27,647 nt of DNA from a virus. The translations under genes were made by a program, and so were the position numbers. Location: the IMG/VR virus record IMGVR_UViG_3300009285_000866, positions 1 through 27,647 of that record; one strand, written 5' to 3'. Below, piece by piece: positions 1,638 through 27,621 of the stretch (the stretch's first letter is position 1; every line of letters starts with the position of its first letter). The notes beneath the pieces are model-generated. The model did no database searches. It was not told the origin of the DNA and worked only from the letters and a program-made list of their open reading frames with translations.

Positions 1638-3899
1638 ATGAATTCCGTCTTCAACTGCCTTCCGAAACAAAAGCTGTTTCTTGAGGAGTGCGATAAGAAG
1701 AGATTCATTTTGTTCAACGGGGGGGTGCAGTCGGGGAAATCCCGCAGCGGAGCGTTGCAGGATTGGAGGGCGGTGATCGAAAACAAACCGCCTCACCTCG
1801 GTTGGGTGGTCGCCGGTTCTTATGCCCAGACGGAAACGGTGATGGGGGATTTCGAGGATTTGCTTCAGGGCGGCATCAAAAGAAAAACGACGATGGAGGG
1901 GGCGCGAGTCATCTTCGATATCTGGAATGGGCATCGGGTCGAATTCAGGACGGCTAGAAATCCGGATGCGCTTCGCGGCCCGCGTGTGGGCTGGGTTCAC
2001 GTCGATGAAGGACGTGAAGTCTCGAAAGAGTGCATGGACGTTCTTTATGGCCGGGTCTTGCGATACAAGGGAAAAATCTGGGTCACGAGCACGCCGAGCG
2101 GAAAACACTGGTGGGGCTACAAGGATTTCTATTTAAGAACCTGCCGCAATACGCCGTGGTTTGATGAAGACTATGGCTACATCCATTGCACAAGCCTTGA
2201 AAACTGGCATCTTGATCCGAAGGAGATCGAAAAACTCCGGGCCAAGTATACCGGAGCCTTCGCCGCTCAGGAGCTTGAGGCTCAATTCGTCGGATATGAG
2301 GGGCTTGTCTACAAGGACTTCGACCCCGGCGCTCATATCTGCGCGCCCGTTTCCCACACCGACCCGAACATCAAGCGCGTCCTCGCCGGTATCGACTTCG
2401 GACTTAACGACCCGTTCGTTCGCTTGATCGTCGCTTTGATCGACGGACGATGGAAAGTAGTGGAAGAATACTACTGGGACCAAGGCGGCAAGACGGTCGA
2501 TCACCATGCGCCCTATCTTCTGGAATCGGCTTGGAATAGCAAGATCGACGTTTGCTATTCCGACTACCACGACCCCGAAGGACAGGCCACGCTGCGGCGG
2601 TATGGGATTGCCAATGTTTCTGCCCCTCACCATGAAATCTATATCGGCATCCATGAGGTGACTCGGCTTCTAGGAACGCGGCTTAATGACGGCTTTCCGG
2701 CGTTGCAGGTGTGTTCCAATTGCCCCAAGACGATAGAGGAGTTTGGGCTTTATCGTTATCCGGAGGAGAGGGAGACGAAGAACGTGGGAGACAAGCCGCT
2801 GGATAAGTACAATCACTGTTTTGTCGCGGGCACGGAAATCGAGACGGATAAAGGGCCGCGTGACATCGAGGAAATACTTGAAGACGATCTGGTTTTAACG
2901 AGGGACGGATTCCATCCCGTCCGCAAAGCATGGATTACACGCCGGGATGCGCCTACGGTTGTTGTCACGCTTGATGATGGAAGGACACTGAGGGGTACGC
3001 CGGAGCACCGAGTGTGGGTGGATGAGACGGGATGGATAACGCTTGACACGCTGCGATATGGAGATAAGATTGTTACATGCAAAGAACGGTTTATCGCGGC
3101 CGAATCTTCAGGTTGTATCGCGGAGAGCGATATTTCAGCCGTGGAACGAAACGGCTGCATCGCGTCATCTGGAGTGACGCAAACGGCCCGATTCCTTCGG
3201 GATATCATGTACACCACTCAAACGGCAATCCCCTTGACAATCGGCTTGAAAACCTTGAGTTGTTGCAATCGAAGGCCCACGCGGGTTGCCACCGCCCAAC
3301 GGGCGAGCGGTTGCGAAAACTACGGGAGCATCTGGACGGAATTCGGGATAAGGCGGCTAGGTGGCATCGGTCGAAAGAGGGAAGACGCTGGCATGGCGAA
3401 AACGCCATCAAGGTTGCGGCAAAGAGAAAGAAAAGGCGTGCGGTCTGTTCCCGGTGTGGGGGGTCTTATTGGAGCAAAGCCCCAAAGCGGTTCTGCTCGA
3501 ACGCTTGCAAGTCTGCGAGTCGCCGCGCCGATGGGCGGGATAGAGTTTCCAGACAATGCCAGATATGCGGGATTGGATATTATTCCTGCCGATTCAAGCC
3601 CACGGAAACTTGCGGTCGCTCATGTGGTGCGCGTTTCCGATGGCAAGCCCGCCGATGTTTACGCGCTTCACGTTAAGACGTGTCACGAATTCTTTGCCAA
3701 TGGAATTCTTGCGGCCAACAGCCTCGACAGCTTAAGATACGCTCTTTTTGGCGAGAATCATTCCGTCTATCGTGGACCGAAGAAGGAAGAGAAGAAGGAG
3801 CCGGGCCCCGGAACCTATGGCTGGTGGCGGAAGCGCCGGCATATTCAACCTGTGGGATTGTTTCCCCGAAGGGGGAATGGATTCTCGATTCTTGGATAA
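1638..3899 (+). CDS. terL: large terminase (TerL) precursor containing an intein
   Basis: This is the motor ATPase and nuclease that packages DNA into the prohead. The 753-residue precursor has Walker A GGVQSGKS (28-35), Walker B HVDEG (D123, E124), the coupling motif TSTP (150-153) and the RNase H-like nuclease start GIDFG (D253). An intein fills residues 394-694. Joining residues 1-393 to 695-753 gives 452 residues, normal for TerL, and rebuilds the last nuclease motif, DKYNH/SLDSLRYAL. The intein therefore splits the nuclease site, and the unspliced protein should not cut DNA. ATG 1638 follows the 49-residue gene by six bases. The N-terminal 250 residues look intact. No small subunit is recognisable nearby. 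The family call is firm; packaging type (cos, pac or other) cannot be told. Confidence 0.95.
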   Translation: MNSVFNCLPKQKLFLEECDKKRFILFNGGVQSGKSRSGALQDWRAVIENKPPHLGWVVAGSYAQTETVMGDFEDLLQGGIKRKTTMEGARVIFDIWNGHRVEFRTARNPDALRGPRVGWVHVDEGREVSKECMDVLYGRVLRYKGKIWVTSTPSGKHWWGYKDFYLRTCRNTPWFDEDYGYIHCTSLENWHLDPKEIEKLRAKYTGAFAAQELEAQFVGYEGLVYKDFDPGAHICAPVSHTDPNIKRVLAGIDFGLNDPFVRLIVALIDGRWKVVEEYYWDQGGKTVDHHAPYLLESAWNSKIDVCYSDYHDPEGQATLRRYGIANVSAPHHEIYIGIHEVTRLLGTRLNDGFPALQVCSNCPKTIEEFGLYRYPEERETKNVGDKPLDKYNHCFVAGTEIETDKGPRDIEEILEDDLVLTRDGFHPVRKAWITRRDAPTVVVTLDDGRTLRGTPEHRVWVDETGWITLDTLRYGDKIVTCKERFIAAESSGCIAESDISAVERNGCIASSGVTQTARFLRDIMYTTQTAIPLTIGLKTLSCCNRRPTRVATAQRASGCENYGSIWTEFGIRRLGGIGRKREDAGMAKTPSRLRQRERKGVRSVPGVGGLIGAKPQSGSARTLASLRVAAPMGGIEFPDNARYAGLDIIPADSSPRKLAVAHVVRVSDGKPADVYALHVKTCHEFFANGILAANSLDSLRYALFGENHSVYRGPKKEEKKEPGPGTYGWWRKRRHIQPVGLFPRRGNGFSILG
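2817..3719 (+). mobile_element. intein in terL with an out-of-frame endonuclease
   Basis: A 301-residue Hint-type intein (precursor residues 394-694) in the terL frame. Block A starts at Cys1 (CFVAGTEIE). Block B has TxxH in GTPEHRVW, followed by a typical GWITLDTLRYGDKI. Block F is VYALHVKTCHEFFANG, and block G ends ILAAN before Ser+1. The penultimate residue is Ala, not the usual His. Between blocks B and F the terL frame encodes about 180 residues with no recognisable domain. The same DNA read in the -1 frame encodes an intact HNH endonuclease (3077-3676). Ser+1 is the first residue of the C-extein SLDSLRYAL. Intein boundaries are precise because the TerL motif is rebuilt exactly. Confidence 0.92.
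3077..3676 (+). CDS. HNH homing endonuclease nested in the terL intein (other frame)
   Basis: A 199-residue HNH endonuclease encoded wholly inside the intein but in the -1 frame. It would cut intein-free terL alleles and so spread the intein. The HNH core is GYHVHHSNGN (H46, H47), then DNRLENLELL and H68. The C-terminal part has two zinc knuckles, C124/C127 with C140/C144 and C161/C164 with C179/C183. It has its own ATG at 3077, where the endonuclease-like sequence begins, and its own TAA at 3674-3676. A GGAG at 3060-3063 could serve as a ribosome site, though its 13-base spacing is long. The codons for C179-C183 overlap intein block F, so conserved residues of both proteins share DNA. The family call is strong; independent translation is inferred. 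Confidence 0.87.
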   Translation: MQRTVYRGRIFRLYRGERYFSRGTKRLHRVIWSDANGPIPSGYHVHHSNGNPLDNRLENLELLQSKAHAGCHRPTGERLRKLREHLDGIRDKAARWHRSKEGRRWHGENAIKVAAKRKKRRAVCSRCGGSYWSKAPKRFCSNACKSASRRADGRDRVSRQCQICGIGYYSCRFKPTETCGRSCGARFRWQARRCLRASR

Positions 3900-3905
3900 G
3901 TTGAC

Positions 3906-4283
3906 ATGGTCGATTTCGCCTACACCAAAAAGATCGAACCGGAAGACTACCGGACTTGGCGGTTGGAGGTTGAAACATGCCGCCCGGTTCGTGGCGAGAC
4001 GTATGAACCGTGTTTCTTCTTCGGAAGAATAGTGGGATCGAAGGATACGCCGGAAGGAATGCTTCTTCTGTCTCAACCCCTATGGATCACCTTTCGGCAA
4101 ATGAGATTTGTCAAGACGCCAATGGATAAGGCTTCGGCCTTGGATTCCATGCTTGTCCAGGGGAAGCGATTGATAAAAATAAGCATTGACCGATGGCATA
4201 AAGGTTTGTTACGTATCGTCCCCAGCCCCAAGAGACAGAGGACGCTGGAAGAGATAGAAAAGAATCTTCGATTTACCGTTTGA
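3906..4283 (+). CDS. hypothetical protein between terL and portal
   Basis: A 125-residue basic protein with no motif that I recognise. It starts at ATG 3906, seven bases after the terL stop, and ends at 4283. The sequence is evenly charged, has no membrane segment or signal peptide and ends in a helical, Glu/Lys-rich tail. Small genes between terminase and portal are common in phages and vary widely. It has no clear ribosome site and may depend on coupling to terL translation. Confidence 0.6.
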   Translation: MVDFAYTKKIEPEDYRTWRLEVETCRPVRGETYEPCFFFGRIVGSKDTPEGMLLLSQPLWITFRQMRFVKTPMDKASALDSMLVQGKRLIKISIDRWHKGLLRIVPSPKRQRTLEEIEKNLRFTV

Positions 4284-4309
4284 CTTTTACCATTCTTCTT
4301 GGGTAAAGT
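4280..4309 (+). promoter_or_regulatory. possible weak promoter overlapping an inverted repeat
   Basis: TTGACT (4280-4285) and TAAAGT (4304-4309) lie 18 bp apart just before the ATG at 4316, like a weak sigma70 promoter. The same bases form an imperfect inverted repeat, ACTTTTACC (4283-4291) and GGTAAAGT (4302-4309), with one bulged T. The predicted start site would fall almost on the ATG, so a hairpin role is as likely as a promoter. Confidence 0.2.
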
Positions 4310-4315
4310 AGACGC

Positions 4316-4519
4316 ATGCTCCATAAAAGACTGAAAAAAGCCGGTTCCCATGCTCTCGATGTTCTTACCGCTCCAAGACGTGCCGCCGAATGGGCGGGAG
4401 AGAAACTTGCCGACACCGTCTATCCTGAATTCAGGAAAAATAAAAAGAGCAGGAAGAGCGGGAAGAGCAGGAGGCGTATTCATCCGATGGTCAAGGCGAT
4501 GATGAAGGACAAATACTGA
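4316..4519 (+). CDS. small strongly basic protein
   Basis: A 67-residue protein very rich in Lys and Arg, especially from residue 40 on (KKSRKSGKSRRR). The N-terminal part can form an amphipathic helix. It may bind nucleic acid or the acidic interior of the prohead, but no family is recognised. It ends four bases before the portal start, and the portal has only a weak ribosome site, so the two are probably coupled. No Shine-Dalgarno sequence is obvious upstream of its own ATG. Confidence 0.5.
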   Translation: MLHKRLKKAGSHALDVLTAPRRAAEWAGEKLADTVYPEFRKNKKSRKSGKSRRRIHPMVKAMMKDKY

Positions 4520-4523
4520 ACGA

Positions 4524-6563
4524 ATGGCGAGACGGAATCGGACGGACAAATCAGTGAAGGTGGGGGGTTCTGCCAAAAGATCAAAATACGAATTGTGGAA
4601 AGCGCGGCTGGATCGTTCACACCGGCTTTGGGACGATTACCGGACTGTAATCCAAAAATACTACGATTCCTACGAAGGCTATTTCGAGGAACAGGACAGC
4701 AATCCCAACTACATCCATATCCCTCTCGCGTTCGCGCACGTCAAGTTCCGCATTCCTTCCCTGCTTCTCAAGAATCCTTTCGTGAAAGTCACGGCCCGCA
4801 CTCCATTCGAGCGGGTCGATAGCCCCGGCGATTTCATCGCGTCCCAGTCTCAGGGCGTGCCTTCCTTGAATCCCGAAGGCCAGCCAGTGCGGGATAATGT
4901 TCTGGGCGCGGAGATTCTTGAGAACGCCTTGAATTACGAATTGAAGGCAATGCGATTCAAGGCGCAAGCAAAGCGGGCGATCATGGACGCGCTCTTTTGC
5001 TATGGCGTTATCAAGGTGGGCTACCACACGGAATACACCTACAACCCGGCTCAAACCCCCCTTGAGATTCAAGAAGCTGAATTGGCGGGAAGAAGCGATC
5101 GGGAAACCTTGGAATGGAATGCTTCGGTCAAGCGCGAAAGTGTTTGGGCCATCCGGGTCGATCCGTGGGATTTCCGATTCGATCCCGACATAAAAATGCT
5201 GGATGAGGAATTGTCTCAATGCCGCTGGGTGGCATTCAGAAGCATCCGCCCACTGGACGACGTGAAATCCGATCCTCTTTACAAGAATACAACCCTGCTT
5301 GAAGGCACCGCCTACCCCGACGATTTCGATTCGGATGAGGGAAAGAAGTCTTCCCAGCAGGATGCGCTCGAGGAGCCTTACGTCATTCTCTGGGAAATAT
5401 GGGACAAGAAGGAGCAGAAAATTTATGTCATTGCGGAGGGGCATGACGATTTCCTTCGGGAAGATGATTGGCCTTACGATATGGATGGTTTCCCTTGCTC
5501 ATTTTTGGCTTTTAACGATCTGCCTACTTTCCGTCGTTATCGCGGCATTCCTCAAGAACGCCGCGTCAGAGGCCCACTCCCGATTTCTGATCTGGCGGAA
5601 TGGCATGAGTTGAATCATATCGTCAATATCACCGAGTCGATGGCGGTGGAGTCGTATAAACGGAAGCTGGACAAGCTGGCCGTTCAGGAAGGAACGATAG
5701 ATGATGAGGAACTTGTTAATTTGACGAAGCCCTTGAGCAAGGGCGTTGTCAAAATGAAAGACCTTGCTGGAATCAAGGAGTTGAAGTCAACCCCTTCCAG
5801 CGGCGAGGAAAACGCGCTGATACAGCGGATGATGAATTGGGTCTTCCAGATTTCCGGCGTGTCGGCGCAACAGCGCGGAGTCAACACCGAATCGACCGCT
5901 ACCCAAAGCAATATCGTTCAGTCTCATGTCGAGGCCCGGCAGGCGGAAAGCGTTGACCGCGTGAAGGATTGGGCGCTGGTGGTCATTCAAAAGCTTGCCC
6001 AGTTGATGAAACAGTTTTTCGACAAGGAGCGGATTGTCCCGGTTATCGGCAGGGAGGATTTTGAGTGGATTCCCTACACCCGTGAAAACATTCAGGGCGA
6101 ATACGATATTAACATCGAGCTGCTTCCTTATGACCCCACCAAGAAGGAAGTCAAGGTCAAGCAGTTGACGGACCTTCTCGCCATTGCGCTCAAGTTCCCC
6201 AATGGGACAATCCCAAATGGAATGGGAGGATTTACCCAGGTCAACGTTGCCAAGCTGATCGAAATGCTTTTCCGGGAAATGGTCGATGGGGTAAGCATTC
6301 GGGAATTCCTTTCCCCCTCAATCGCTCCCCCAGCGAATCCCGCCGGGATGCCTCCTGGATCCGCCCCCTCTGGGGCACCCGGCGGGCCCGGGGGGGACGG
6401 CGCTCCCCTTCCTGGCGAAGGGAAGGGGGCGGACAAAAGAAGCATGGTTGCTTCTCAGGGGGCGGGGAATGCGCTTGTTCAGGCGTTGCGGCAGGATGGG
6501 GGGCCGCAAGCCGTATCGACTTCGATCAATACCGGGGCTTCGTCCCCAAGCCGGGGGTCTTGA
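4524..6563 (+). CDS. portal protein
   Basis: The 679-residue protein forms the dodecameric ring at one capsid vertex through which DNA is packaged and ejected. Position after terL and before scaffold and coat, length, and typical segments support the call: an N-terminal region with DSNPNYIHIPLAFAHVKF, a central VDPWDFRFDPD, the helical region around ISGVSAQQRGVNTESTATQS, and a low-complexity Gly/Pro/Ala tail from about residue 600. Length and order fit the long portals of P22-like podoviruses. It starts at ATG 4524 with a weak upstream AAGGAC and is probably coupled to the basic protein before it. The next gene begins one base after its stop. Confidence 0.85.
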   Translation: MARRNRTDKSVKVGGSAKRSKYELWKARLDRSHRLWDDYRTVIQKYYDSYEGYFEEQDSNPNYIHIPLAFAHVKFRIPSLLLKNPFVKVTARTPFERVDSPGDFIASQSQGVPSLNPEGQPVRDNVLGAEILENALNYELKAMRFKAQAKRAIMDALFCYGVIKVGYHTEYTYNPAQTPLEIQEAELAGRSDRETLEWNASVKRESVWAIRVDPWDFRFDPDIKMLDEELSQCRWVAFRSIRPLDDVKSDPLYKNTTLLEGTAYPDDFDSDEGKKSSQQDALEEPYVILWEIWDKKEQKIYVIAEGHDDFLREDDWPYDMDGFPCSFLAFNDLPTFRRYRGIPQERRVRGPLPISDLAEWHELNHIVNITESMAVESYKRKLDKLAVQEGTIDDEELVNLTKPLSKGVVKMKDLAGIKELKSTPSSGEENALIQRMMNWVFQISGVSAQQRGVNTESTATQSNIVQSHVEARQAESVDRVKDWALVVIQKLAQLMKQFFDKERIVPVIGREDFEWIPYTRENIQGEYDINIELLPYDPTKKEVKVKQLTDLLAIALKFPNGTIPNGMGGFTQVNVAKLIEMLFREMVDGVSIREFLSPSIAPPANPAGMPPGSAPSGAPGGPGGDGAPLPGEGKGADKRSMVASQGAGNALVQALRQDGGPQAVSTSINTGASSPSRGS

Positions 6564-6564
6564 T

Positions 6565-6852: not shown

Positions 6853-6872
6853 AACCAGTCCCCAATGAATCA

Positions 6873-6889
6873 TCCCGCATGTTGCGGGA
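6873..6889 (+). promoter_or_regulatory. intergenic hairpin before the scaffold gene
   Basis: TCCCGCA (6873-6879) pairs perfectly with TGCGGGA (6883-6889) around a 3-base loop. CCCC just upstream and AGGGG at 6896-6900 may extend it. Only CTTCTC follows, so it is a weak terminator at best. It may stabilise the capsid-gene transcript or mark a processing point. Confidence 0.4.
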
Positions 6890-15708: not shown

Positions 15709-17793
15709 ATGTCATACGTAGACCCGTATTACAGCTATTCGAATCCGCTGCTTCGTGGAAGGACTACCGCTTCATCCGGGAAGGGCAACGATCCGCCAAG
15801 GGCGGCGAGGTATGGAGGAGTGTCGCAACAGTCTGCGGTGGGCGAGATTCCACAGCCTCAGCAATATCAGCAGCCACAGCCGCCACAGCAACAGCAACAA
15901 CAGCAATCCAATCAGGGATCGGGTTTCGGATCGGATTTCGACGAGATATTCGAGGCTTTGCTTCAAAGCAGAATAAGGCAGCAGCAAAATCAGCAGCAAG
16001 CCCAAAATTACGAACCCAATGTAAACAGGAGTGTTTTCACGGCTGACAGGCCGTGGGGGGGGCAGGGAGCGGGGACGCGGCAGGTTTTTAATGTTGACCC
16101 CTACACAGGAGCAATAAGCCGGTTCGGGGAGCCTCCGGCATATAGCGGGCCTCCAATGGCTACGTCTTGGGAGCCGGGAAGAGGATACACACAGCGGACT
16201 ATTGATCCAAGGCGGTCCCTTATAGATCAAGGATTTGATCCAAAAAGACAGATGAACATTGGAACCACCATGCCGGGAGGTCCTGGAGCTTCCCCTCAAC
16301 AGGGACCTGTAAATCCGGCCTATCAAATGGCGGGTCTTTCGGGTCAGCCGGGCGGTGGGGGTGCAGGACAAACCGGAATATCCTCTCGAACAGAAGGAAC
16401 TGGCGGTGGTGTGGGAACTGGAGGTAGTGAACTGGGAATCAACACGGAATTCGATATCGCCCGGCGGAGGATGGGGGAGCAGCAGACAGAGCAAGAACGG
16501 CTGATTGGGGAGGATTATCAGCGGCGAGGATTGACCCAAAGCGGATTGCTTTCTCAGGGTATACAGGAAAGCCGAAATCGTTTTGGAACGGTGGGGGGAG
16601 ACTTGGAAGCCCGGCGCATTGCCATGATTGCCGGGTTAAGGGAACGGGATGCGATGAGAAATCAAAGCCGGTCGGACAGCTTGCTCAATCAGCGGGCTTA
16701 TGGAAATCAAATGTTGAATCAGATGGGCGCACAGGGGGGGGGCAACACCCGATACAGAGGCGGCGGCGGGGGAGGTGGGCAGTCGCTTGCCAATTACTTT
16801 CAATCTACTGGCCCAACGCAAAACGACGCCCGGTATGATTATGTAGCGGGACAGCAGCGGATGGCCGAGCAGGAGCAGGCACAGCGGGATTTGGGGCCGC
16901 TGCAACAGCAGATGCAACAGGAGGAATTTTTACAGGATATCTTGGGGCAAATGTCGGGACAGGAAGAGAGGGGATACAAGCGTGGATTTGAAGGCGGGAA
17001 AGAAAGAACCAGACAGGCGGAATTCCAGCAAAGGCAGGAAGGGATTGATTTACAGAGGCAGATTTCAAATTTCTTCAGGGAATTGGAGTTTACAAGGAGA
17101 GGTGAGAAGGAAGAGACGAGGATAAAAGAGCGGGGTGAGAATGCACAGGCAAAAGTGGCACGGGAGTTTGGAAAGATGTTTGGTGTTGAGATTCCCGCAC
17201 CCGTATTGGCCCAGCGCATTCTTGAGAAGGGAGGCGAAAGACTGAACAGGGCCATTGCCGTTCCGGGACAAAAAATTCATCGCATGGTTCGGGATATGAT
17301 TTCGGAGGCTGCTAGTAATCCAGAAGGAGAAATGAACTGGTATCAGGATGACGAGGCGAGAACCGGGACCGGAATGGAAATGCTTCAGGCTTTGGCGCGT
17401 GCGTCTGGTATTTCATCCGGAACGAAAGGGTTTTACGATATCGAAGAAAAGGAGAAAAAACAAGAAACGAGGGCGGAAGAAGCCACACAGGAGGCGAAGG
17501 ACAGTCTTAAAAATAGGTTCGAGCATCAGAAAAAGATGGACGATAGAACAGAAACAAGAGACTTGGCGGAAATGGGCGCAGCGCAATTGATGTCCGAACT
17601 TCTAAAAAGCTTTGCCAAGAGTATTCAGGAGGATGAGGAGGCACTTACAGGGAAGGATGAAGCGCGGGGGGATAGAAACGTTAAAAAGATTCAGGCGTTT
17701 CTTGACGCGCTTAAGGACGCACAGATGACACCAGAGATGTATGATTTGATGAATTCCATCCTCCAAGACCCCCCTAAACCTATGGGTTTCTAA
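15709..17793 (+). CDS. large Gln/Gly-rich virion protein
   Basis: A 694-residue protein that I do not recognise. Residues 45-100 are mainly Gln and Pro (QPQPPQQQQQQQ; CAG/CAA repeats at about 15855-15915). Residues 150-350 are Gly/Gln-rich and disordered, and residues 370-640 are charged coiled coil (KGFYDIEEKEKKQETRAEEA). After the hub gene such proteins are often ejection or internal virion proteins, which cross into the cell with the DNA. ATG 15709 abuts the previous stop with AAGGGG at a 7-base spacing; the end overlaps the next gene by one base (TAATG). Confidence 0.6.
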   Translation: MSYVDPYYSYSNPLLRGRTTASSGKGNDPPRAARYGGVSQQSAVGEIPQPQQYQQPQPPQQQQQQQSNQGSGFGSDFDEIFEALLQSRIRQQQNQQQAQNYEPNVNRSVFTADRPWGGQGAGTRQVFNVDPYTGAISRFGEPPAYSGPPMATSWEPGRGYTQRTIDPRRSLIDQGFDPKRQMNIGTTMPGGPGASPQQGPVNPAYQMAGLSGQPGGGGAGQTGISSRTEGTGGGVGTGGSELGINTEFDIARRRMGEQQTEQERLIGEDYQRRGLTQSGLLSQGIQESRNRFGTVGGDLEARRIAMIAGLRERDAMRNQSRSDSLLNQRAYGNQMLNQMGAQGGGNTRYRGGGGGGGQSLANYFQSTGPTQNDARYDYVAGQQRMAEQEQAQRDLGPLQQQMQQEEFLQDILGQMSGQEERGYKRGFEGGKERTRQAEFQQRQEGIDLQRQISNFFRELEFTRRGEKEETRIKERGENAQAKVAREFGKMFGVEIPAPVLAQRILEKGGERLNRAIAVPGQKIHRMVRDMISEAASNPEGEMNWYQDDEARTGTGMEMLQALARASGISSGTKGFYDIEEKEKKQETRAEEATQEAKDSLKNRFEHQKKMDDRTETRDLAEMGAAQLMSELLKSFAKSIQEDEEALTGKDEARGDRNVKKIQAFLDALKDAQMTPEMYDLMNSILQDPPKPMGF

Positions 17794-20700
17794 TGGCAAG
17801 AAGAAGACGGCGGCCAGCCTCAGAGTCAGAATCTCAGGCTTCGCCCGGAATCCTCAGTCGGCTTGGTAGTGGCACTCTTGCTACTCTTGAATCCTCTGCC
17901 ATACAGGTTCCGTTGCACATCCTCGATACTCCACGCCGTATCGTTGCCGAAGCGGGGAATGAATTTCTCCGTCAAGTCCAGCCGATCACCCCGGAGGATC
18001 AAAATAGAAGCATATTCGATTCGGCAAAGCAAATCGTCAAAGCAGGATTAAAACCCTCAAGGGCAAAGGCTCCAAGTGGATTTCAAGTTGCCAGAGGAAT
18101 TAGAGGGGGCGGCAGCAATTGGTCGAATATACTTTGGGGAGCGGGCCTTGAGTTGGGTCAAGACCCCACCACATTCCTTGGCGTTGGCTTGGGTACAAGG
18201 GGGGCAAGGCTCGTCACGGCTACTGGGCAGAAGGTATTAAAAACCGCAAAGGGCGAGGGGCTTTTCAAGCAGATATTTCAAAAGGAGCTTATCAAGGGAT
18301 TGACCAGAGAAGTCGCGGAGCTGTCGGCAGAGAGAAAACTGATGGGTCTTGCGGAAAAGACTCCGGGATTGATCGAGAAGGCTGGCCTTACGTTTACTCC
18401 CACCCCGCTTCTTCCCTTTGGCCCTGTTATCAAGGTCAAAGGAACGGAAAGGGCGGTGGAGGCCGCCGCCCAGCCGTTCAAGTCGCTCTGGAAGAGGATC
18501 AGCCCAAACTCCGAAGCAAAGTCGATTATTGCGGAAACCCTGCATAGGGAGAGAGTACGCAGGGGTGCTCAGGTGGCGGAGCAAATCAGGCTGGCCGCCC
18601 CCATGCTTAGGGCCGCAGCGCGAAAAGGGGACGATCCGATAGGTATCATGACAATGGTTACCAAGGCGGTTGAGGCCCCCGCCGGGACTCCTGCCTACCT
18701 TCGCGCACTGGAAGACGTACCTGATTATGCAAGGCCATACGTCGAGAGTTTGAAGTCAAGCCAGAAACAATTCCTGAAATCGGAACAGTATCTCGGCGTT
18801 CCAACATCGGAGCTTGGAGCGGCGGCAAAGGCTAAAATCATCAAGCGCGAAATGGACCTTGGGAATGTCGTGAAGGTATTGAGGGCGGCGGGAGGAAGCG
18901 TGACGGAAGCTGCGCCCAAAGACAGGCTGTCAATTTACCGTTCCCTTGAAGAGGCGGTATCGGGTCCGAAGGGCCGCGCTGGAATGCGCGAAATGAGGGG
19001 GGTTGAAAGGGGAATCAGGGGAATTGAGAGGGTTGAAGGCAAGTCGAAAAATGTGACTCTTGCAAGAGTGTCGAAGTTCATAAACAAGTTCATCGACAAG
19101 ACAATGTCCGATGCGGCGAGAAAGGTTGAAGGGCTGCACGGAAAGGGAATTGATACGGCAAAGGTGACTGCGAAGGCCGCACAGGTTCAATCTATACAGG
19201 GTGACATTCGGCAGATTGCAAGCGGAAAAATTTCGACCACAGGGCTGTCGGCATCTGAAATAAAGTCCCTTAAATCATCACGCGGGGCGCGGCAGTACCA
19301 GGAGCAGATGAAGTTGAATTTGAGCGAAAATCTAGTTGAGACCAGGGCAGACTTGAGGTCTTTGGGTCAAGAGGCTGTCGCACAAAAATCGCTGAAAGGG
19401 CTGAAGCAGTTTGTTCAGTCTGTTTTACCGAAAGAGGCGTGGTCGGAAGTTTATTCAGCCATAGACCGCCTTGAATCCTCGATCAACAATACTGTTACTC
19501 GCGCCGCCGGTAGAATGAAGAGCGCCAGGGACGTATTCGCTGCGACTCGCAAGGAGGTGGACACGGTTATTGATCGGATCGACCTTGCCCTTAAAACCGA
19601 AAAATCCCGCCTTTTTGGAAGGCAGGAGGCAGTGGGCGAGAGGCTGATTGCGACGATTGGCGATGAAATCCAGGCATTGAAGGGGGAGTTGGGTGACTAC
19701 GATTATTTCGAGCATTACCTTACTCCCGCATTCAGGGAATTTCTGGACAAGAATCCAACCTATCGCGGGATAAGCAAAATAGTCACGACTTCTCACGCCA
19801 GCCAACTTCACCGGAAGCTGTCAAAGTATGACATTGCAACCGCGAATCTTGAATCGAAGTCGGGAAGACTGTTCCCCGGATTCAATGAGGATATCTTTGT
19901 AACCGATCCGCGTGTGATTCAAATCACCCGCGTCTGGAAACATATTGACACGACCAACGCGGCGCAACTGGCGATGGACCTTCGGAAATTCGGGAAGTTT
20001 GCGGATGCGGAAGAAGTCATTGCCAATCCTAAGCTGTGGACCGCATTCCCCTATGAACATCCTTCCATTCCCAAGGGGTTGCTATTTCCAAAGGAAGTGG
20101 CGGATGCCGTTGCCAAAATGCGGGACAAGACAAGGATGGCCGGATCGTCATGGAAAGTCACCAAGGCTTTCGATGCGGCCAATAACTGGTTTAGAAAGGC
20201 GACCCTATTCCCGTTTCCGGGGACATGGGGACGAAACCTTATTAGTGCGATATCCGTCAATGCGATGGAAGGATCGACAAATCCACAAGATTACATCCAA
20301 TCCTTCCGGGCCATTACGAATGCCCACGGTACGATTGACGTGGGGAAATGGGGGAAGGCCACCTATAACGATATCCGTCAGTGGGCGACTGAACATGGAG
20401 TTATTGGCGGAAGGATCGGCGGCATGGAGGCAATGGCCGGGGCCATGTCTCCCGAAGACCAGCTTGCCGACCTTTTGCTTGGCAGCCAAGGGAGGGTCAA
20501 ATTCCTTGGCGCTCCGGTTGAACCAAAATCCTTTGCCGGTCGAATTGCGACGGGGACAAGCTACGCCGTTGGCGAGCGTAATCCAGTCATGCGTCTTGGC
20601 GCATATGCGATGAATTTTGGGGACGAGGGTACGAGGCTGGCTCATTTTATTGCCCGGATCAAGCAGGGAGATACGCTGGAGGCGGCTTCAAATTCAGCCC

Positions 20701-21545
20701 GAAAGTATCTTGGCAGTCCTTACCGCCTCACTCATTTCGAGAATGATTACGTCAACCGGACATTCTTTTTCTATCGGTGGCTTCGCCATAACGTTCCGCT
20801 TCAGGTTGTGGAAGCCGTCCGGCGTCCCGGCAGGACTGCCGCGCTGTTGCGGTTGGAGGCAGAAGCAAAGAGGGAGGTGATGCGACCGGAAGACGCCGAT
20901 TTCATTCCAAAGTTCTACCAAGCCACGATGGGAATTCCATATCGCTATAACAAAGAAAAGAAGTCCTACGAAATGTTACAGCTTGGCGGCTGGCTGGCGA
21001 CTGCCGATTTGGGGCTGCTTCGTATTCCGTTTATTGATGAACCTCAAGGAGCGGTGAGATTTGGACTTCAACAGATGTCCCCCCTTTGGACAGCCGGGCC
21101 GGACATTGCCACCAAGGGGCAATTCTTGCGGGGTGAAGCCGCAAGGCCAAGGGCCGGGGCTTACGAGGTTTTGAAGATGCCCCTTGTCAATCCGAACGGC
21201 TGGTTGATTGAAGACCCCCAATGGGCACCCCGGATTGACGTTGCCTTGAGGAAGGTAAGGCTTATCAATACCTTGGATTCAATGGTTGATCGGCCCAACG
21301 AATCCACGGGAATTCGGGGATCGCGTGCGTTAATCAATTACTTTACCGGAATCAAGCCGACAGAGTTGAGTATCCCAAGAGAAACATTTATTGCCAAGAT
21401 CAGAAAGATTGACTTGATGAACTCCTATCGGCGTAGATTGAGGGAGGCGATCCAAAACAAAGATCAGCGAGTTGTTGACAGTACCGTCAGAAACATGGTC
21501 CGTGACAGCGGCTTGCCCTTGGAGTATTTCACAAGGGGGTACTGA
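17793..21545 (+). CDS. giant internal virion/ejection-type protein
   Basis: A 1250-residue protein with a basic N-terminus (MARRRRRPASESE). Much of it is predicted helix with coiled-coil stretches (residues about 410-640), and the C-terminal third contains WFRKATLFPFPGTWGRNLI and RTFFFYRWLRHNVP, a pattern seen in large phage internal or polyvalent-type proteins. A TM-like segment is not clear. No lysozyme or protease motif is visible. It starts in a TAATG overlap and ends in a TGATG overlap. The gene is larger than its neighbours and may be injected with DNA; that role is inferred from place and size. Confidence 0.6.
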   Translation: MARRRRRPASESESQASPGILSRLGSGTLATLESSAIQVPLHILDTPRRIVAEAGNEFLRQVQPITPEDQNRSIFDSAKQIVKAGLKPSRAKAPSGFQVARGIRGGGSNWSNILWGAGLELGQDPTTFLGVGLGTRGARLVTATGQKVLKTAKGEGLFKQIFQKELIKGLTREVAELSAERKLMGLAEKTPGLIEKAGLTFTPTPLLPFGPVIKVKGTERAVEAAAQPFKSLWKRISPNSEAKSIIAETLHRERVRRGAQVAEQIRLAAPMLRAAARKGDDPIGIMTMVTKAVEAPAGTPAYLRALEDVPDYARPYVESLKSSQKQFLKSEQYLGVPTSELGAAAKAKIIKREMDLGNVVKVLRAAGGSVTEAAPKDRLSIYRSLEEAVSGPKGRAGMREMRGVERGIRGIERVEGKSKNVTLARVSKFINKFIDKTMSDAARKVEGLHGKGIDTAKVTAKAAQVQSIQGDIRQIASGKISTTGLSASEIKSLKSSRGARQYQEQMKLNLSENLVETRADLRSLGQEAVAQKSLKGLKQFVQSVLPKEAWSEVYSAIDRLESSINNTVTRAAGRMKSARDVFAATRKEVDTVIDRIDLALKTEKSRLFGRQEAVGERLIATIGDEIQALKGELGDYDYFEHYLTPAFREFLDKNPTYRGISKIVTTSHASQLHRKLSKYDIATANLESKSGRLFPGFNEDIFVTDPRVIQITRVWKHIDTTNAAQLAMDLRKFGKFADAEEVIANPKLWTAFPYEHPSIPKGLLFPKEVADAVAKMRDKTRMAGSSWKVTKAFDAANNWFRKATLFPFPGTWGRNLISAISVNAMEGSTNPQDYIQSFRAITNAHGTIDVGKWGKATYNDIRQWATEHGVIGGRIGGMEAMAGAMSPEDQLADLLLGSQGRVKFLGAPVEPKSFAGRIATGTSYAVGERNPVMRLGAYAMNFGDEGTRLAHFIARIKQGDTLEAASNSARKYLGSPYRLTHFENDYVNRTFFFYRWLRHNVPLQVVEAVRRPGRTAALLRLEAEAKREVMRPEDADFIPKFYQATMGIPYRYNKEKKSYEMLQLGGWLATADLGLLRIPFIDEPQGAVRFGLQQMSPLWTAGPDIATKGQFLRGEAARPRAGAYEVLKMPLVNPNGWLIEDPQWAPRIDVALRKVRLINTLDSMVDRPNESTGIRGSRALINYFTGIKPTELSIPRETFIAKIRKIDLMNSYRRRLREAIQNKDQRVVDSTVRNMVRDSGLPLEYFTRGY

Positions 21546-22168: not shown

Positions 22169-22216
22169 ATGCCCGTTAGTGACCTGCCAAGAGGATCGTC
22201 TAGGGGGATGGTATGA
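22169..22216 (+). pseudogene. orphan 15-codon gene start left of the endonuclease
   Basis: ATG 22169 with a good ribosome site, AAGGG (22156-22160), opens a frame MPVSDLPRGSSRGMV that stops at 22214-22216, overlapping the endonuclease ATG at 22213. Just past that gene, DNA at 22628-22645 reads IPVPDL before an in-frame stop, and CCCGT..TGACCT matches on both sides at 11 of 14 bases. It looks like the original start of the following tail gene, cut off by the endonuclease insertion. Confidence 0.4.
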
Positions 22217-22626
22217 AACCGGATGAGGGGACAAAACAGCGGTGTTATGTTTGCAAGCGCACGAAGAACACTAGTTGTTTTAGTCTAAAAAACTCTGGCA
22301 AGTGGAAGGGCCACTTCAGGTATGACTGCAAGCGATGCAATGCAATCAGTAGCAAGAGATATGCCAAAGAAACTGGGTATCACAGAAAACACAAATATGG
22401 CATTGGGCTACACGAATACGAGAATATGATAAGAACCTGCGGGGGAAGATGTGAGCTTTGTGGGGAATTTCCAAAACCAAATAAAATGTTACATTTGGAT
22501 CACAATCACAAGACAAGAAAGGTTCGGGGTCTTTTGTGTCCGTCCTGTAATCTTGGGCTGGGATTATTCAAGGATAATCCAGCAACACTTCAACTGGCAA
22601 TTAATTACCTTCTAAGGAGAAACTGA
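22213..22626 (+). CDS. endonuclease VII-like HNH protein
   Basis: A 137-residue protein with the endonuclease VII signature: zinc pairs CYVC and CELC with a later CPSC, and the catalytic MLHLDHNHKTRKVRGLLC. A first Cys-rich half (CYVCKRTKN, YDCKRCN) precedes it. In T4 this family resolves branched DNA, but free-standing copies in phages often act as mobile homing-type genes. This copy splits two parts of a tail gene (orphan start 22169-22216; next gene at 22673), which supports the mobile reading. ATG 22213 has AGGGGGA at a 4-base spacing. The family call is firm; mobility is inferred. Confidence 0.8.
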   Translation: MKPDEGTKQRCYVCKRTKNTSCFSLKNSGKWKGHFRYDCKRCNAISSKRYAKETGYHRKHKYGIGLHEYENMIRTCGGRCELCGEFPKPNKMLHLDHNHKTRKVRGLLCPSCNLGLGLFKDNPATLQLAINYLLRRN

Positions 22627-22672
22627 AATTCCCGTACCTGACCTCTGAGACTTTGGGCCACATGCGCCAGTT

Positions 22673-23698: not shown

Positions 23699-23701
23699 CC
23701 C

Positions 23702-24340
23702 ATGACAATCCCACTGACTATCAATAACGATGGAACCCGCGTGGCGATGAGGACTCGCCATAACAATGCGGGCACCGTCTTGACTTCGGACCTTCCAATC
23801 CTTCCGGTGGCGGGCATTGCCCCGCTTGTCATCTTCACTCAGACGGCTACCGCGACCGTTGGCAATACGGGCACCGAAACAACCCTTACAGGATCGGGGG
23901 TTGGAACGCTCACCCTTCCCGCGAATACACTGGTCGCCGGACGCGCGCTCCGGTTGAAAGCGAACGGAACGTTTTCCACGAATGCGCTTGCCAATCCGCT
24001 TGTCATCAGGGTGAAACTGGGATCGACCGCCGTTTTACTCACAGTGGCAACGGCGGCGGCAACCCTGCTTGTCGATAGGATGTGGAGCGTATCGGCAATT
24101 ATTACATGCAGGACAACCGGAGCGCTGGGAACGGTACAAAGCCAATCTGATTCCGGGTTCTTCCACATGGAAACCGCAACGGCGGCCGGGACGCCTACGG
24201 TATGGGAAATGACCGATTTGCTTGCGGTTGTCATAGACACAACAGCATCTCTTGTCGTCGATTTAACCGCCGATTGGACCACGGCTGCGGCTCTGGCAAC
24301 GATCAATTGCACCAACCTAACATTGGAAATTCTGAATTAA
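23702..24340 (+). CDS. beta-rich tail structural protein
   Basis: A 212-residue protein almost wholly of Thr/Ala/Val-rich strands. Typical segments are TLTLPANTLVAGRALRLKAN, PLVIRVKLGSTAV and WEMTDLLAVVIDTTASLVVD. This pattern is common in phage tail-fibre and accessory structural proteins that form trimeric beta folds. It shares style with 8842-9366, including a final LEF/LEI strand, but I claim no homology. It starts three bases after the previous stop, without a clear ribosome site, and so may depend on coupling. A 59-residue gene follows 12 bases later. Confidence 0.55.
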   Translation: MTIPLTINNDGTRVAMRTRHNNAGTVLTSDLPILPVAGIAPLVIFTQTATATVGNTGTETTLTGSGVGTLTLPANTLVAGRALRLKANGTFSTNALANPLVIRVKLGSTAVLLTVATAAATLLVDRMWSVSAIITCRTTGALGTVQSQSDSGFFHMETATAAGTPTVWEMTDLLAVVIDTTASLVVDLTADWTTAAALATINCTNLTLEILN

Positions 24341-24352
24341 AGGAGACTTGGC

Positions 24353-24532
24353 ATGACCCCATTAAAATCGGAAGTTCCCAAGTGGTTTCTTTATCTTGCC
24401 GCAATCGGTTTCGTCGCCATTGGGGGATATATGTTAAGCGATATTTACGTCACGGTCAAAAGGACAGATCAACGGGTTACTTCCCTCGAAGCGCGATTCG
24501 ACATGCTCCTTTCTTTGGGTCATAAGCCATAG
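24353..24532 (+). CDS. 59-residue single-membrane-segment protein
   Basis: A small protein with one membrane segment near its N-terminus (WFLYLAAIGFVAIGGYML, about residues 11-28), followed by a charged helix with LEARFDMLLSLG. The layout (short cytoplasmic lead, TM, helical tail) fits a small holin or inner-membrane spanin component. ATG 24353 has AAGGAG (24339-24344) at an 8-base spacing; the stop TAG overlaps the AGGAG site of the lipoprotein gene. It is too short for a standard ORF call. Lysis is inferred from the neighbour; no endolysin is seen in the window. Confidence 0.5.
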   Translation: MTPLKSEVPKWFLYLAAIGFVAIGGYMLSDIYVTVKRTDQRVTSLEARFDMLLSLGHKP

Positions 24533-24542
24533 GAGAATTGCC

Positions 24543-25061
24543 ATGCAAAGGCTGATGCTGGTTGCGATTCTGGTTCTAGCTGGATGCACTCCTTCAATCG
24601 TGAAGGAGAACATCGGTCATATCAAGGCGGAGTTTGGGACGATCAAAGCCGAGGATGCCGCCAATGAGCATGCCCAAGTGGGGGAGGCTCTGGCCGTGTC
24701 ATTGGAGGAATGGGCGGGCCCGGCGGACTTTCCGGTTCAGCATAATCACCCTGCGGCTCTGGCCGTCGCAAAGGCGACAAGCGAGGAGGCAAAGAATCCT
24801 TCTTGGCTTGGCTTTGCGGATGGATTGGTAGGGCACCTTCCTTGGGGGGGGGCTTTGATTACAGCCCTTGGATTCCTTCATCGTTCACGAAAGCATGTTC
24901 GTGCGCTCGTAACGGGAGTGGAGGCGATCCGGAACAAGAAGCCTGGATGGAAAGAGGATATCTACGCGGCAATCAAGCAAGCGTCCGTCGATGCGGGAGT
25001 ACGGGATTCTCTTGCTTCGACAGTCGCAGCGATCAAGACCAAGATTCGGAAGGAGGATTGA
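24543..25061 (+). CDS. lipoprotein with a TM-like segment, possible lysis role
   Basis: A 172-residue protein with a lipoprotein signal: charged start, hydrophobic MLVAILVLAGC and Cys at residue 15 (LAGC lipobox). The mature part is helical. A weakly hydrophobic stretch, GLVGHLPWGGALITALGFLH, is near residue 100. It follows the 59-residue membrane protein with AGGAG at a 7-base spacing, so the pair could be a spanin-like or membrane-anchored accessory set. A tail-associated lipoprotein is the other option. No peptidoglycan-cutting motif is present. Confidence 0.55.
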   Translation: MQRLMLVAILVLAGCTPSIVKENIGHIKAEFGTIKAEDAANEHAQVGEALAVSLEEWAGPADFPVQHNHPAALAVAKATSEEAKNPSWLGFADGLVGHLPWGGALITALGFLHRSRKHVRALVTGVEAIRNKKPGWKEDIYAAIKQASVDAGVRDSLASTVAAIKTKIRKED

Positions 25062-25063
25062 AT

Positions 25064-25441
25064 ATGCCCATCATTTCAGTCGATACCACGGATGGAGTCA
25101 TTCAACCGGTAAACGCAAGGACGGATACTTCTTTGCGTATCCGGGTGCTTGACCCGGTAGGCGCGGCAAAGAACATTACAAGCTATGCTTTCCGCGCAAC
25201 CTTCCGGCTGAATAACGGTGGGAGGGTAATCAAGAATTATCATACGAGCACAGGGGGGATAGCCTTAACTTCATCTACCAATGGCAGATTGACTATTACG
25301 GTTGATGCCAGCGACCTGCCCCCGGCTCCGTTTGGATTTTTGGAATTGGTCGAATATTCAGGTGGGAGCTTGGCCGGTGATCCAACCGACCGCTTTCGCT
25401 TCCGCGTCCCGATTTCTGGTGGCAGCGGGGAAAGCTATTGA
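25064..25441 (+). CDS. small beta-sandwich tail or fibre protein
   Basis: A 125-residue protein with an immunoglobulin-like strand order: DTSLRIRVLDPVG, SYAFRATFRLNNGG, GRLTITVDASDLP, FLELVEYSGG and FRFRVPISGG. The pattern resembles N-terminal attachment domains of phage baseplate upper proteins, but it stands alone here. The excellent AAGGAGG (25050-25056, 7-base spacing) picks ATG 25064 over the much longer in-frame frame from 24803, which is a shadow of the lipoprotein gene. Its stop overlaps the radical SAM ATG (TGATG). Confidence 0.55.
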   Translation: MPIISVDTTDGVIQPVNARTDTSLRIRVLDPVGAAKNITSYAFRATFRLNNGGRVIKNYHTSTGGIALTSSTNGRLTITVDASDLPPAPFGFLELVEYSGGSLAGDPTDRFRFRVPISGGSGESY

Positions 25442-27621
25442 TGTCGATTTCAGACGTGGCCGAAAGACTGGTGTTGGATGACTCCAAGATTCAATACCAC
25501 ATGGATCGAGTGAAGCAGTGGGATCGGGGGGAACGGATTGCTCCCATTACGATTGACATGGCCTTAACTCAAGCGTGTACCGCCGGATGCGGTTTTTGCA
25601 TCCGTGGAGATCAAAGAATTCTTCTTTCAGGTGGTTTGTCAGTACCGATAAAAGAAATTAAAACTGGCGACTGTGTTGTCTCTCTGGGAAAAGACGGGTC
25701 TCTTTCCACATCAATCGTCACCGCGTCTTGGATGAGTCATCCCAATAAAAAAACATTGACAATTTTCGTGCAAGGCGATATGCTTGTTTGCACATATGAT
25801 CACCCAATCCTCACAAGACAAGGTTGGAAGCTGGCGGGTCAACTCACCCCCGGCGAGAAAATCGCATGTATCCCCGGAAGGTCGCGCCGCCATGTCCGCA
25901 AAGATGATTGGCGACAAAAACCCGATGAGGAATCCAGACGTTGTCAGGCGTCAAGGCGAAACCATGAGGCTTCGGCACGCCAAGAAGATTTCAGAATGGT
26001 CGAAACGCATGTGGAAGGCTGGACGAATGAACCCGACGGGCATGGGGATGGAAAGCAGGAAAGCCGCCGCCAAGAGAATGAGAGAAAACAATCCGATGCG
26101 ACGCAAGGAGGTTGCAGAGAAATCACGGAGTTCCTTTTCGCCGGAAAGAAGGAAGTCCTTGTCGGAAAGAATGAAATTGTCTTGGAAAACCGGGGCAATA
26201 AAGCCAAGGACTTATGGACAGGGAATAAACAGTCAGGAGAAGATATTGAATGCCACGTTGGCCCCGATGGGATTTACTTACATGGGGGACGGAAAGTTTT
26301 GGGTCAATCCGACCAAGAGCGGTATTCGGAGAAATCCAGATTTCATGTACACGGCGCAGAAAGATTTGCGCCTGGTTGTTCTCTTGAATTCAACGTATCA
26401 TCACCGGGACAAAGAGAAATTCGATCAGGAAATGGAAGATTACATTGTGGCAAAATGGAATGTGTTGGTTCTTTGGTTAAAGAACCGGATTACGTTGCTT
26501 CATCGAGAAGAAGTAGAGAAGATCGTCTGCGGGGAGTTGTCTATTGTAAAGTCGAATCTATTGAGGCTTCCTCAAGTTGCCCAGTATACGATATTGAGTG
26601 CTGGCCGCATCACAATTTCATCGCCTCTGGCGTAGTTGTTCATAATTGCTATGCCGCCCTTCAAGCTAACAAGCCAAGGCGTATCACAACGGAGATCATG
26701 CGGCAGTTCCTGGATGACTGCTTTGAGATCGGCGTCAAGGCGGTATCGTTCGTGTCGGACGGCGAATCAACCCTGTCCCCCGCCTATGCCCCCTCCATAG
26801 AACACGGCCATTTCATAGGGTTGGATATGGCCTCTGGGACGTGGGGGGGTCCACTAACCAGGCCGATCATCGACCGGGTATTGCCCTGCCTGACATACCT
26901 CCGATTCAATATCAGTGGTGGAACCCCCGAAAGAACAGCCGAAATCATGGGGATCAGCATCCCGCAGCATCTAAAGGTGCTGGAAACGGTCCGCTATTGC
27001 GTCGATAGGAAGGCGGAAAGGGGTCTAGGAGTGACGATAGGCATCCAGATGGTACTTCGACCCCAAGATGCAGACCAGATCATCCCATTTGCGAAATTAG
27101 GCGTTTCTCTTGGCGTAACATATGCCATAATTAAGCACTGTTCAGACGATGAATCTGGTAGCCTTGGGGTGGATTACGACAAATATCCCCTATTTTACGA
27201 CAAGCTGCAAGAGGCGGAATCATTAAGCACGGATACAACCAAAGTGGTAATCAAGTGGAACAAGATCAAACAGGGGGGGACAAATCGAAGACCCTACGAC
27301 CGATGCTTTGGACCTCCATTCATCATGCAGATTTCAGGCTCTGGTTTGGTGGCTCCGTGTGGAATGTTGTTTAACGAGAAGTACAGCCGATTCCATATCG
27401 GGAACATCTGCAAAACCCGATTCAAGGATATCTGGCAATCGGAGAAATACTGGGAAGTGATGAATTTGATTGCCGATCCGAACCGGTTCGATCCTCGAAA
27501 GGCTTGCGGGTCATTGTGTTTGCAGGATCGCACCAACGTGGCTCTGTGGAATCACAAGGTTAACGGCGTTTCGCTTGTTGAACCCTCCGAAGCCGATCCC
27601 GCCCATGTTAATTTCGTTTAG
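25441..27621 (+). CDS. radical SAM/SPASM enzyme precursor containing an intein
   Basis: A 726-residue precursor of an iron-sulphur enzyme that uses S-adenosylmethionine radicals. The CxxxCxxC motif is C46, C50 and the third Cys, which is split off by an intein (residues 53-402); Cys403 becomes the third ligand after splicing. The spliced form is 376 residues. Downstream, SFVSDGESTL and YLRFNISGG fit the partial TIM barrel. The C-terminal SPASM-type region has C622, C640, C689 and C693 (RCFGP, VAPCGM, ACGSLC) for extra clusters. ATG 25441 overlaps the previous stop. Substrate is unknown; peptide or glycan modification is plausible. It could still be an anaerobic-activating type enzyme. Confidence 0.85.
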   Translation: MSISDVAERLVLDDSKIQYHMDRVKQWDRGERIAPITIDMALTQACTAGCGFCIRGDQRILLSGGLSVPIKEIKTGDCVVSLGKDGSLSTSIVTASWMSHPNKKTLTIFVQGDMLVCTYDHPILTRQGWKLAGQLTPGEKIACIPGRSRRHVRKDDWRQKPDEESRRCQASRRNHEASARQEDFRMVETHVEGWTNEPDGHGDGKQESRRQENERKQSDATQGGCREITEFLFAGKKEVLVGKNEIVLENRGNKAKDLWTGNKQSGEDIECHVGPDGIYLHGGRKVLGQSDQERYSEKSRFHVHGAERFAPGCSLEFNVSSPGQREIRSGNGRLHCGKMECVGSLVKEPDYVASSRRSREDRLRGVVYCKVESIEASSSCPVYDIECWPHHNFIASGVVVHNCYAALQANKPRRITTEIMRQFLDDCFEIGVKAVSFVSDGESTLSPAYAPSIEHGHFIGLDMASGTWGGPLTRPIIDRVLPCLTYLRFNISGGTPERTAEIMGISIPQHLKVLETVRYCVDRKAERGLGVTIGIQMVLRPQDADQIIPFAKLGVSLGVTYAIIKHCSDDESGSLGVDYDKYPLFYDKLQEAESLSTDTTKVVIKWNKIKQGGTNRRPYDRCFGPPFIMQISGSGLVAPCGMLFNEKYSRFHIGNICKTRFKDIWQSEKYWEVMNLIADPNRFDPRKACGSLCLQDRTNVALWNHKVNGVSLVEPSEADPAHVNFV
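25597..26646 (+). mobile_element. intein in the radical SAM gene with an out-of-frame endonuclease
   Basis: A 350-residue Hint-type intein (precursor residues 53-402). Block A starts at Cys1 (CIRGDQRILLSGG). Block B has TYDHPILTRQGW with T and H of TxxH, then LTPGEKIACIPG. Block F is YDIECWPHHNFIASG, and block G ends VVVHN before Cys+1. The splicing frame between blocks B and F encodes about 195 hydrophilic residues with no recognisable domain. The same DNA read in the +1 frame encodes a NUMOD3/Vsr-like endonuclease. Boundaries are exact because removal rebuilds the CTAGCGF/CYAAL iron-sulphur motif. Confidence 0.92.
25796..26635 (+). CDS. NUMOD3 + Vsr/EDxHD-like homing endonuclease nested in the intein (other frame)
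   Basis: A nuclease frame inside the second intein, +1 relative to it. NUMOD3-type repeats come first (SPEGRAAMSAKMIGDKNPM, MNPTGMGMESRKAA, NNPMRRKEVAEK). A Vsr-like or EDxHD-type core follows: SQEKIL (Glu), GFTYMGDGKFW, RRNPDF (Asp), a hydrophobic strand, TYHHRD (His and Asp) and WNVLVLW. The start is uncertain: ATG 25796 lies in block B DNA, while ATG 25892 has GGAAGG at a 10-base spacing but cuts into the first repeat. The last 40 codons look like a shadow of intein block F. It differs in family and frame from the terL intein enzyme. Independent expression is inferred. Confidence 0.75.
   Translation: MITQSSQDKVGSWRVNSPPARKSHVSPEGRAAMSAKMIGDKNPMRNPDVVRRQGETMRLRHAKKISEWSKRMWKAGRMNPTGMGMESRKAAAKRMRENNPMRRKEVAEKSRSSFSPERRKSLSERMKLSWKTGAIKPRTYGQGINSQEKILNATLAPMGFTYMGDGKFWVNPTKSGIRRNPDFMYTAQKDLRLVVLLNSTYHHRDKEKFDQEMEDYIVAKWNVLVLWLKNRITLLHREEVEKIVCGELSIVKSNLLRLPQVAQYTILSAGRITISSPLA

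Follow-up and report, generated by a model that had tools for sequence, protein, structure and literature searches.

Phage inteins carrying a nuclease gene in an overlapping reading frame are recurrent, conserved and mobile

We analysed a 27,647-base virus record (IMG/VR IMGVR_UViG_3300009285_000866, positions 1 to 27,647; hereafter the window), whose structural genes stand in the usual order (the terminase large subunit gene terL, portal, major head protein and others). Two of its genes, terL and a radical-SAM/SPASM gene, are each interrupted by an intein that is overlapped, in another frame of the same strand, by a nuclease open reading frame (ORF). The original prediction made from this sequence had held that two unrelated genes here share such a design with different nucleases and different frame offsets, and that inteins of this kind may be recurring and mobile. 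Both inteins were found (an HNH nuclease at +2 in terL, a second nuclease at +1 in the radical-SAM gene), and overlapping-frame inteins are real, recurrent, conserved and mobile: they form 86 clusters, and one exact 981-nucleotide presence/absence difference separates near-identical phages. The features concerned are as follows.

1638-3899, + strand: terL host gene, open throughout and interrupted by an intein (Terminase_6N E = 1e-11; phrog_2 E = 1e-39)
2817-3719, + strand: intein 1, 301 residues, in terL (Intein_splicing PF14890 E = 3e-8 in the terL frame; block hidden Markov models (HMMs); Hint fold by AlphaFold2 (AF2) and Foldseek)
2817-3080 and 3615-3719, + strand: blocks A-B and F-G of intein 1, with the +1 residue Ser at 3720-3722
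3077-3676, + strand: HNH homing endonuclease ORF, 199 residues, in the +2 frame relative to terL (HNH_3 E = 7.5e-17; phrog_15471 E = 1.6e-30)
25438-27621, + strand: radical-SAM/SPASM host gene (SPASM E = 3e-9; Radical_SAM E = 0.002; intein-free relatives)
25597-26646, + strand: intein 2, 350 residues, in the radical-SAM gene (Intein_splicing E = 3e-12; block HMMs)
25597-25872 and 26542-26646, + strand: blocks A-B and F-G of intein 2, with the +1 residue Cys at 26647-26649
about 25796-26635, + strand: ORF of a NUMOD3 and Vsr/EDxHD-like nuclease, in the +1 frame (same-frame homologues in loci L118, E = 2e-41, and L159, hhalign 99.4)

The terL insert has the sequence of a class 1 intein: C1, the Thr and His of the block B TxxH motif and the terminal Asn are invariant in the aligned copies, and insert and host gene form one open frame. 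In an AF2 model built with 27 homologues, residues 1-91 and 261-301 have a predicted local distance difference test score (pLDDT) of about 95, and residues 92-260, essentially the part overlapped by the HNH ORF, score 32-45 and are nearly all coil. The flanks are predicted to form a complete Hint fold, with a disordered segment at the overlap, and Foldseek matches the model to the gp41-1, RecA and DnaB mini-inteins (template-modelling score TMt about 0.8-0.88, best 0.87-0.88). The overlapping ORF has the residues of an HNH nuclease, with H46, H47, N55, N59, H68 and H72 invariant across four phages.

The second intein is inserted directly 5' of the third Cys of the radical-SAM CxxxCxxC motif. 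The start of its nuclease ORF is uncertain (TTG 25784, ATG 25796 or ATG 25892), the conserved core lies at about 25871-26539, and the protein would have about 250-280 residues with NUMOD3-like repeats. Nineteen radical-SAM relatives were found; in those without an intein that were examined, the CxxxCxxCY site is uninterrupted. Homologous +1 nucleases occupy the same site in L118, again in a radical-SAM gene (33% identity over 253 residues, BLASTP E = 2e-41), and in L159, a B12-binding protein of another radical-SAM family (CxxxCxx|C; hhalign probability 99.4); the three nucleases share NUMOD3-like repeats together with a conserved Glu (E132), NPD and YxH residues. Taken alone, the second ORF matched no Pfam or PHROG family, gave a poor single-sequence AF2 model (mean pLDDT 43) and found no match in a profile search of the PDB. 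It bears a weak resemblance to the Vsr-like EDxHD type, the Vsr matches lying in its relatives at E-values of 0.041 and 0.048.

Searching with tblastn and the window HNH, we found the same +2 HNH and intein blocks in the TerL frame in three cultured phages of unrelated hosts with annotated TerL genes: Tetrasphaera phage TJE1, Acinetobacter phage Highwayman and Rhodobacteraceae phage LS06-2018-MD07 (37-38% identity to the window in the HNH, 22-27% over the whole TerL). IMG/VR was then scanned with an HNH alignment, the best 80 of 350 relatives being used, and block HMMs located the intein halves. These loci, the phage records and the window together give 72 HNHs lying between both intein halves, comprising 62 open overlaps at +2, 1 at +1, 9 fractured arrangements and none in frame; in all of the overlaps the break in terL falls immediately ahead of the C-terminal catalytic region, typically at a D-A/S-x-R-Y motif. 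Scans with single nuclease sequences were weak, confirming no HNH relative and, for the second nuclease, returning no phage record and only NUMOD3-repeat matches besides L118, so that relatives had to be sought with alignment queries or tblastn.

Scans made without reference to the nuclease also recovered the design. A consensus TerL mini-intein found 22 loci with both blocks (some duplicating earlier records), of which 18 are overlaps, 3 mini-inteins and 1 an in-frame HNH. A broader scan with an intein alignment returned 7 overlaps, namely two query elements (L155, the L118 record, and L160, that of Xanthomonas phage FoX3) and 5 others, alongside at least 6 in-frame nuclease inteins, about 10 mini-inteins and fractured forms. 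Eight more overlaps came from GTDB contigs in bins assigned to Bacteroides, Parabacteroides, Pseudomonadota, Acidobacteria, Patescibacteria, Berkelbacteria and one Thermoplasmatales archaeon; these bins may contain viral contigs. Across all sets there are 98 overlapping-frame inteins, or 86 clusters at 95% identity (80 at +2, 6 at +1), spanning phage and viral contigs and contigs of bacterial and archaeal metagenome-assembled genomes, with HNH, Vsr/EDxHD-like and LAGLIDADG nucleases. The screen that had been proposed, of public phage inteins for out-of-frame nuclease ORFs, has thus been run in part, and it gave many further cases, with three nuclease types and an offset that is constant within a lineage.

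Other members differ in nuclease, offset or host gene. In L166 and L182 the Walker B region of TerL holds an HNH of another kind, at +1. In FoX3 (L151:2180-4546) a LAGLIDADG_2 nuclease (E = 1e-21) lies at +2 in the intein of a superfamily 2 (SF2) helicase; the coding sequence, annotated 'head morphogenesis', is itself that helicase (ResIII, Helicase_C). The terL inteins of L055 (3152-4189) and L052 (2506-3400; C block not found by HMM) carry an HNH_3 nuclease at +1 rather than +2 and apparently have separate origins. The TerL Walker B motif (AWC-DEL-CKW) of L138 (1798-3807; IMGVR_UViG_3300032242_002717) holds two tandem inteins separated by about three residues, each with its own +2 HNH, and a single TerL ORF in L178 (1834-6064; IMGVR_UViG_3300046360_000144) has three matches to the intein N block, with a +2 HNH in the third intein.

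The two frames are under different constraints. Over 58 distinct +2 cases, the intein frame contains 0 stops against 103.8 expected by shuffles, and the third frame 1013 against 1012.1; across all clusters, 0 stops compare with 148 (+2) and 62 (+1) expected. Because openness defines the class, these zeros are partly by construction, and the fair comparison is between the 63 of 72 HNHs with both halves in which the frame is open and 19 relatives not classed as open inteins, of which none is open in the equivalent frame (115 stops against 112.3 expected), a group that includes a few loci where only one intein block was found (L044, L052 and L078). Continuity at both flanks, together with repetition, had at the outset been held to favour selection. 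Between close relatives, substitutions peak at position 3 of the HNH codons (57/49/107 and 8/5/29), which is position 2 of the intein frame. HNH identity exceeds that of the shadow (0.60 against 0.30 in one pair), with a similar excess in free-standing controls. Purifying selection thus acts on the nuclease frame, and the overlying intein frame is merely kept stop-free.

From these sequences we consider it very probable that the intein splices in cis and that a separately translated, overlapping-frame nuclease drives its homing. Translation of the host frame would run without a break from the N-intein across a disordered 'shadow' linker into the C-intein, after which the intein would excise itself by splicing to leave a functional TerL or radical-SAM enzyme. 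The nuclease would be translated independently from an internal start codon and would cut intein-less alleles of the host gene, recombination then copying the whole element in. Selection would require of the linker in the intein frame only that it stay open and tolerable, and of the nuclease frame a working enzyme. Certain observations weigh against this account, among them the weak Vsr assignment and the limits on the stop counts given above. At least one Shine-Dalgarno motif is found near the start in just 31 of 59 distinct overlapping HNH genes; the window HNH start has none at the usual spacing, with GGAGA lying 12 nucleotides upstream; and at 3714-3719 of the window terL intein, Ala takes the place of the penultimate His that usually precedes the C-terminal Asn.

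The nuclease might most simply be made by internal initiation. All 59 of these HNH genes have a start codon near the N-terminus, and a Shine-Dalgarno-like motif accompanies 33% of such starts, against 13% of internal codons in the HNH frame and 19% in the extein frame. Programmed ribosomal frameshifting from the intein frame, yielding an N-intein-nuclease fusion, would suit the prevalence of +2 (80 of 86 clusters), the frame into which a -1 shift leads, as well as the genes, about half, that lack a Shine-Dalgarno motif, and a slippery heptamer does occur upstream in 13 of 62 cases. However, the other 49 have no heptamer in the entry window, the starts are enriched in Shine-Dalgarno motifs and six clusters lie at +1; we set frameshifting aside after the heptamer search and regard it as unlikely. 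In 61 of 62 cases block F contains the HNH stop, and where the Tyr of the block F motif V-Y-D/N-L is encoded by TAT the motif itself supplies that stop (TAT GAN giving TGA, TAT AAN giving TAA; about 21 cases, 12 YD and 9 YN), which may help to explain why +2 prevails.

That these elements move is recorded by a recent, site-specific insertion. The Highwayman terL is 99.4% identical to that of Acinetobacter phage Acba_21 over 1214 nucleotides upstream of an in-frame 981-nucleotide insertion at DA|LRYA in Highwayman; the 88 nucleotides downstream are 90.9% identical, a lower value that fits co-conversion. The Highwayman terL region is shared by 42 Acinetobacter records, and among the matches listed in a search with the HNH protein only Highwayman has an HNH inside TerL; MRABphi22, which with Acba_21 was inspected individually, likewise has an uninterrupted terL. 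Phage BP10 was rejected as the empty-site relative, its TerL being just 25% identical, and Acba_21 is the right comparison. The exact insertion polymorphism is only an indirect sign that the HNH may cleave the intein-less allele. An HNH in terL might alternatively be a packaging nuclease working with TerL, like the HNH proteins encoded beside terminases, and free-standing relatives do often adjoin terL, but its sporadic presence, the near-identical Acinetobacter terL genes that lack it and the recurrence of the architecture with other nucleases in radical-SAM and helicase genes make this quite improbable as an alternative to homing.

Self-splicing, for its part, competes with the idea that the inserts have lost splicing and simply persist as tolerated loops, as has been proposed for the ShiLan insert of phage DNA methylases (compared below). 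The missing penultimate His of the window terL intein speaks for such a loss, and splicing there may be slow or compensated. The invariance of C1, TxxH and the terminal Asn in the aligned copies nevertheless argues for retained function, and a loop of about 300 residues would presumably be poorly tolerated at the insertion sites, which are the CxxxCxxC cluster and TerL catalytic motifs. We therefore judge tolerated loops very unlikely.

A further possibility is that the nuclease is real and that the open frame over it is a chance shadow, the intein reading being incidental. For the window HNH alone this has some force: synonymous codon shuffling keeps the intein frame open with P = 0.09, or 0.15 under the phage's own codon usage, so that an initial estimate of about 1e-4 for each case was far too strong for terL. 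For the radical-SAM gene that estimate was of the right order, the frame being open in 0 of 20,000 shuffles with 9.6 stops expected. By openness alone the terL case is unremarkable; it gains weight from its relatives and from the nuclease homology itself. Long shadow ORFs do occur elsewhere in the window, as had been noted for a 222-codon example at 19945-20613. This lies in the +1 frame of the gene at 17793-21545 and is probably due to chance; neither it nor any of five further long shadow ORFs matched a Pfam family, and nuclease homology, not openness, therefore sets the two nuclease cases apart. As a general explanation a chance shadow is contradicted by recurrence, there being 86 clusters in which two recognisable intein halves share a frame, and by the contrast of 63 of 72 with 0 of 19, and it must be considered highly improbable.

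Two other explanations can be given almost no weight. In-frame nuclease inteins do exist (L150, L174), yet their displacement by two compensating frameshifts, as an indel or sequencing artefact, would have to explain an identical offset in dozens of independent assemblies, cultured phages included, and the absence of in-frame arrangements among the 72 close HNH relatives; the outcomes named beforehand as fatal to the idea, that no other cases exist or that all are indel artefacts, did not materialise. A self-splicing RNA intron, although phage HNH genes commonly reside in such introns, was set aside because the window has no Rfam match up to E = 0.5, and the insert is stop-free and encodes a complete (predicted) Hint fold.

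The overlapping form has close relatives in other arrangements. On a tree of 96 HNHs, the overlapping, free-standing and fractured states require 11, 10 and 6 changes, respectively, of which 3, 5 and 4 are forced by well-supported branches; with labels changing this repeatedly, the three states appear to interconvert, the number and direction of changes being uncertain. Fractured relatives stand alongside the overlaps (L020, L152, L153, L190-L192 and L196) and include Lactobacillus phage CL2, Vibrio phage 1.245.O and Pectobacterium phage Ymer, and the free-standing relatives often adjoin terL. In Vibrio phage 1.245.O (L152:2537-3389) the split terL coding sequence ends with the N-intein half, followed by an unannotated HNH and then by the C-intein half, which bears the annotation 'hedgehog/hint domain protein'. 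We think the likeliest origin is that a mini- or split intein captured a neighbouring free-standing nuclease gene. The original prediction had a free-standing nuclease invading a mini-intein or linker. That free-standing, fractured and overlapping forms occur together with mini-inteins is consistent with it, but the direction of change that it implies is among its weaker parts.

Among known systems the nearest is the ShiLan domain/Pacc40 insert, described by Arsenault, Gosselin and Gogarten (2025, PMC11855218), in which DNA methylases of phages contain an HNH that is out of frame; those authors report that ShiLan contains no self-splicing domain, intein or intron. Both systems place a stop-free mobile insert hiding an HNH in another frame within a phage host gene, and both pose the same puzzle of nuclease translation. 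Unlike ShiLan, the inserts described here are complete inteins, so that intein blocks accompany the out-of-frame nuclease, and they lie in terL, radical-SAM and helicase genes with three nuclease types. Mycobacteriophage TerL inteins have an in-frame LAGLIDADG homing endonuclease (PMC5050341). With such conventional large inteins the present elements share the Hint splicing domain, a nuclease between blocks B and F and phage TerL as host gene; they differ in that the nuclease, instead of lying in the intein frame and the same polypeptide, is a separate ORF at +1 or +2.

Group I introns that encode homing endonucleases likewise have a separate nuclease gene inside a self-removing element, whereas removal here would occur at the protein level, and Rfam detected no intron RNA in the window. 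Fractured genes, in which split inteins reportedly have a free-standing nuclease between their halves (a description said to be that of Dassa et al. 2009, a paper that PMC10448857 cites), resemble our elements in having the nuclease as its own ORF between intein halves and in their phage hosts, and the second nuclease here resembles the EDxHD type. The gp41-1 intein, the nearest solved fold to that of the window, is one that we take to belong to this split-intein group. In contrast to fractured genes, host gene and intein here form a single ORF that continues across the nuclease gene, with no stop between the blocks in the window or in the 86 clusters. Frame entanglement also has an engineered counterpart, in which a meganuclease is interrupted by an intein (PMC12455656). 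We found no report of overlapping-frame nucleases in inteins, ShiLan being nearest, in a full-text literature search that left most subscription journals outside its reach, so that a prior report is possible.

Frame-entangled inteins are likely to be a general and previously undescribed class of mobile element, in which a splicing domain and a nuclease would be separately translated from overlapping frames, with several origins involving different nucleases, and to be the prevailing form in one large phage terL intein family. The overlapping-frame design seems to be an established, though apparently undescribed, way to build these selfish elements. Inteins are usually described as mini-inteins or as in-frame nuclease fusions. 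If the present elements work as we propose, many seemingly nuclease-free phage inteins carry a hidden, separately expressed nuclease, in which case intein mobility has been underestimated and annotation with one ORF per locus misses nucleases. They also provide many natural examples of dual coding on one strand where the only constraint on one of the frames is that it remain open, which makes them a clean test bed for the evolution of overlapping genes. Contiguous inteins, fractured split inteins and free-standing nucleases are here joined in one family, so that an old question, how inteins gain their endonucleases, becomes testable. Apart from the two inteins, the window contains a free-standing endonuclease VII-type ORF (22213-22626; PF02945 E = 1.4e-21), a further nuclease that may act in homing or resolution.

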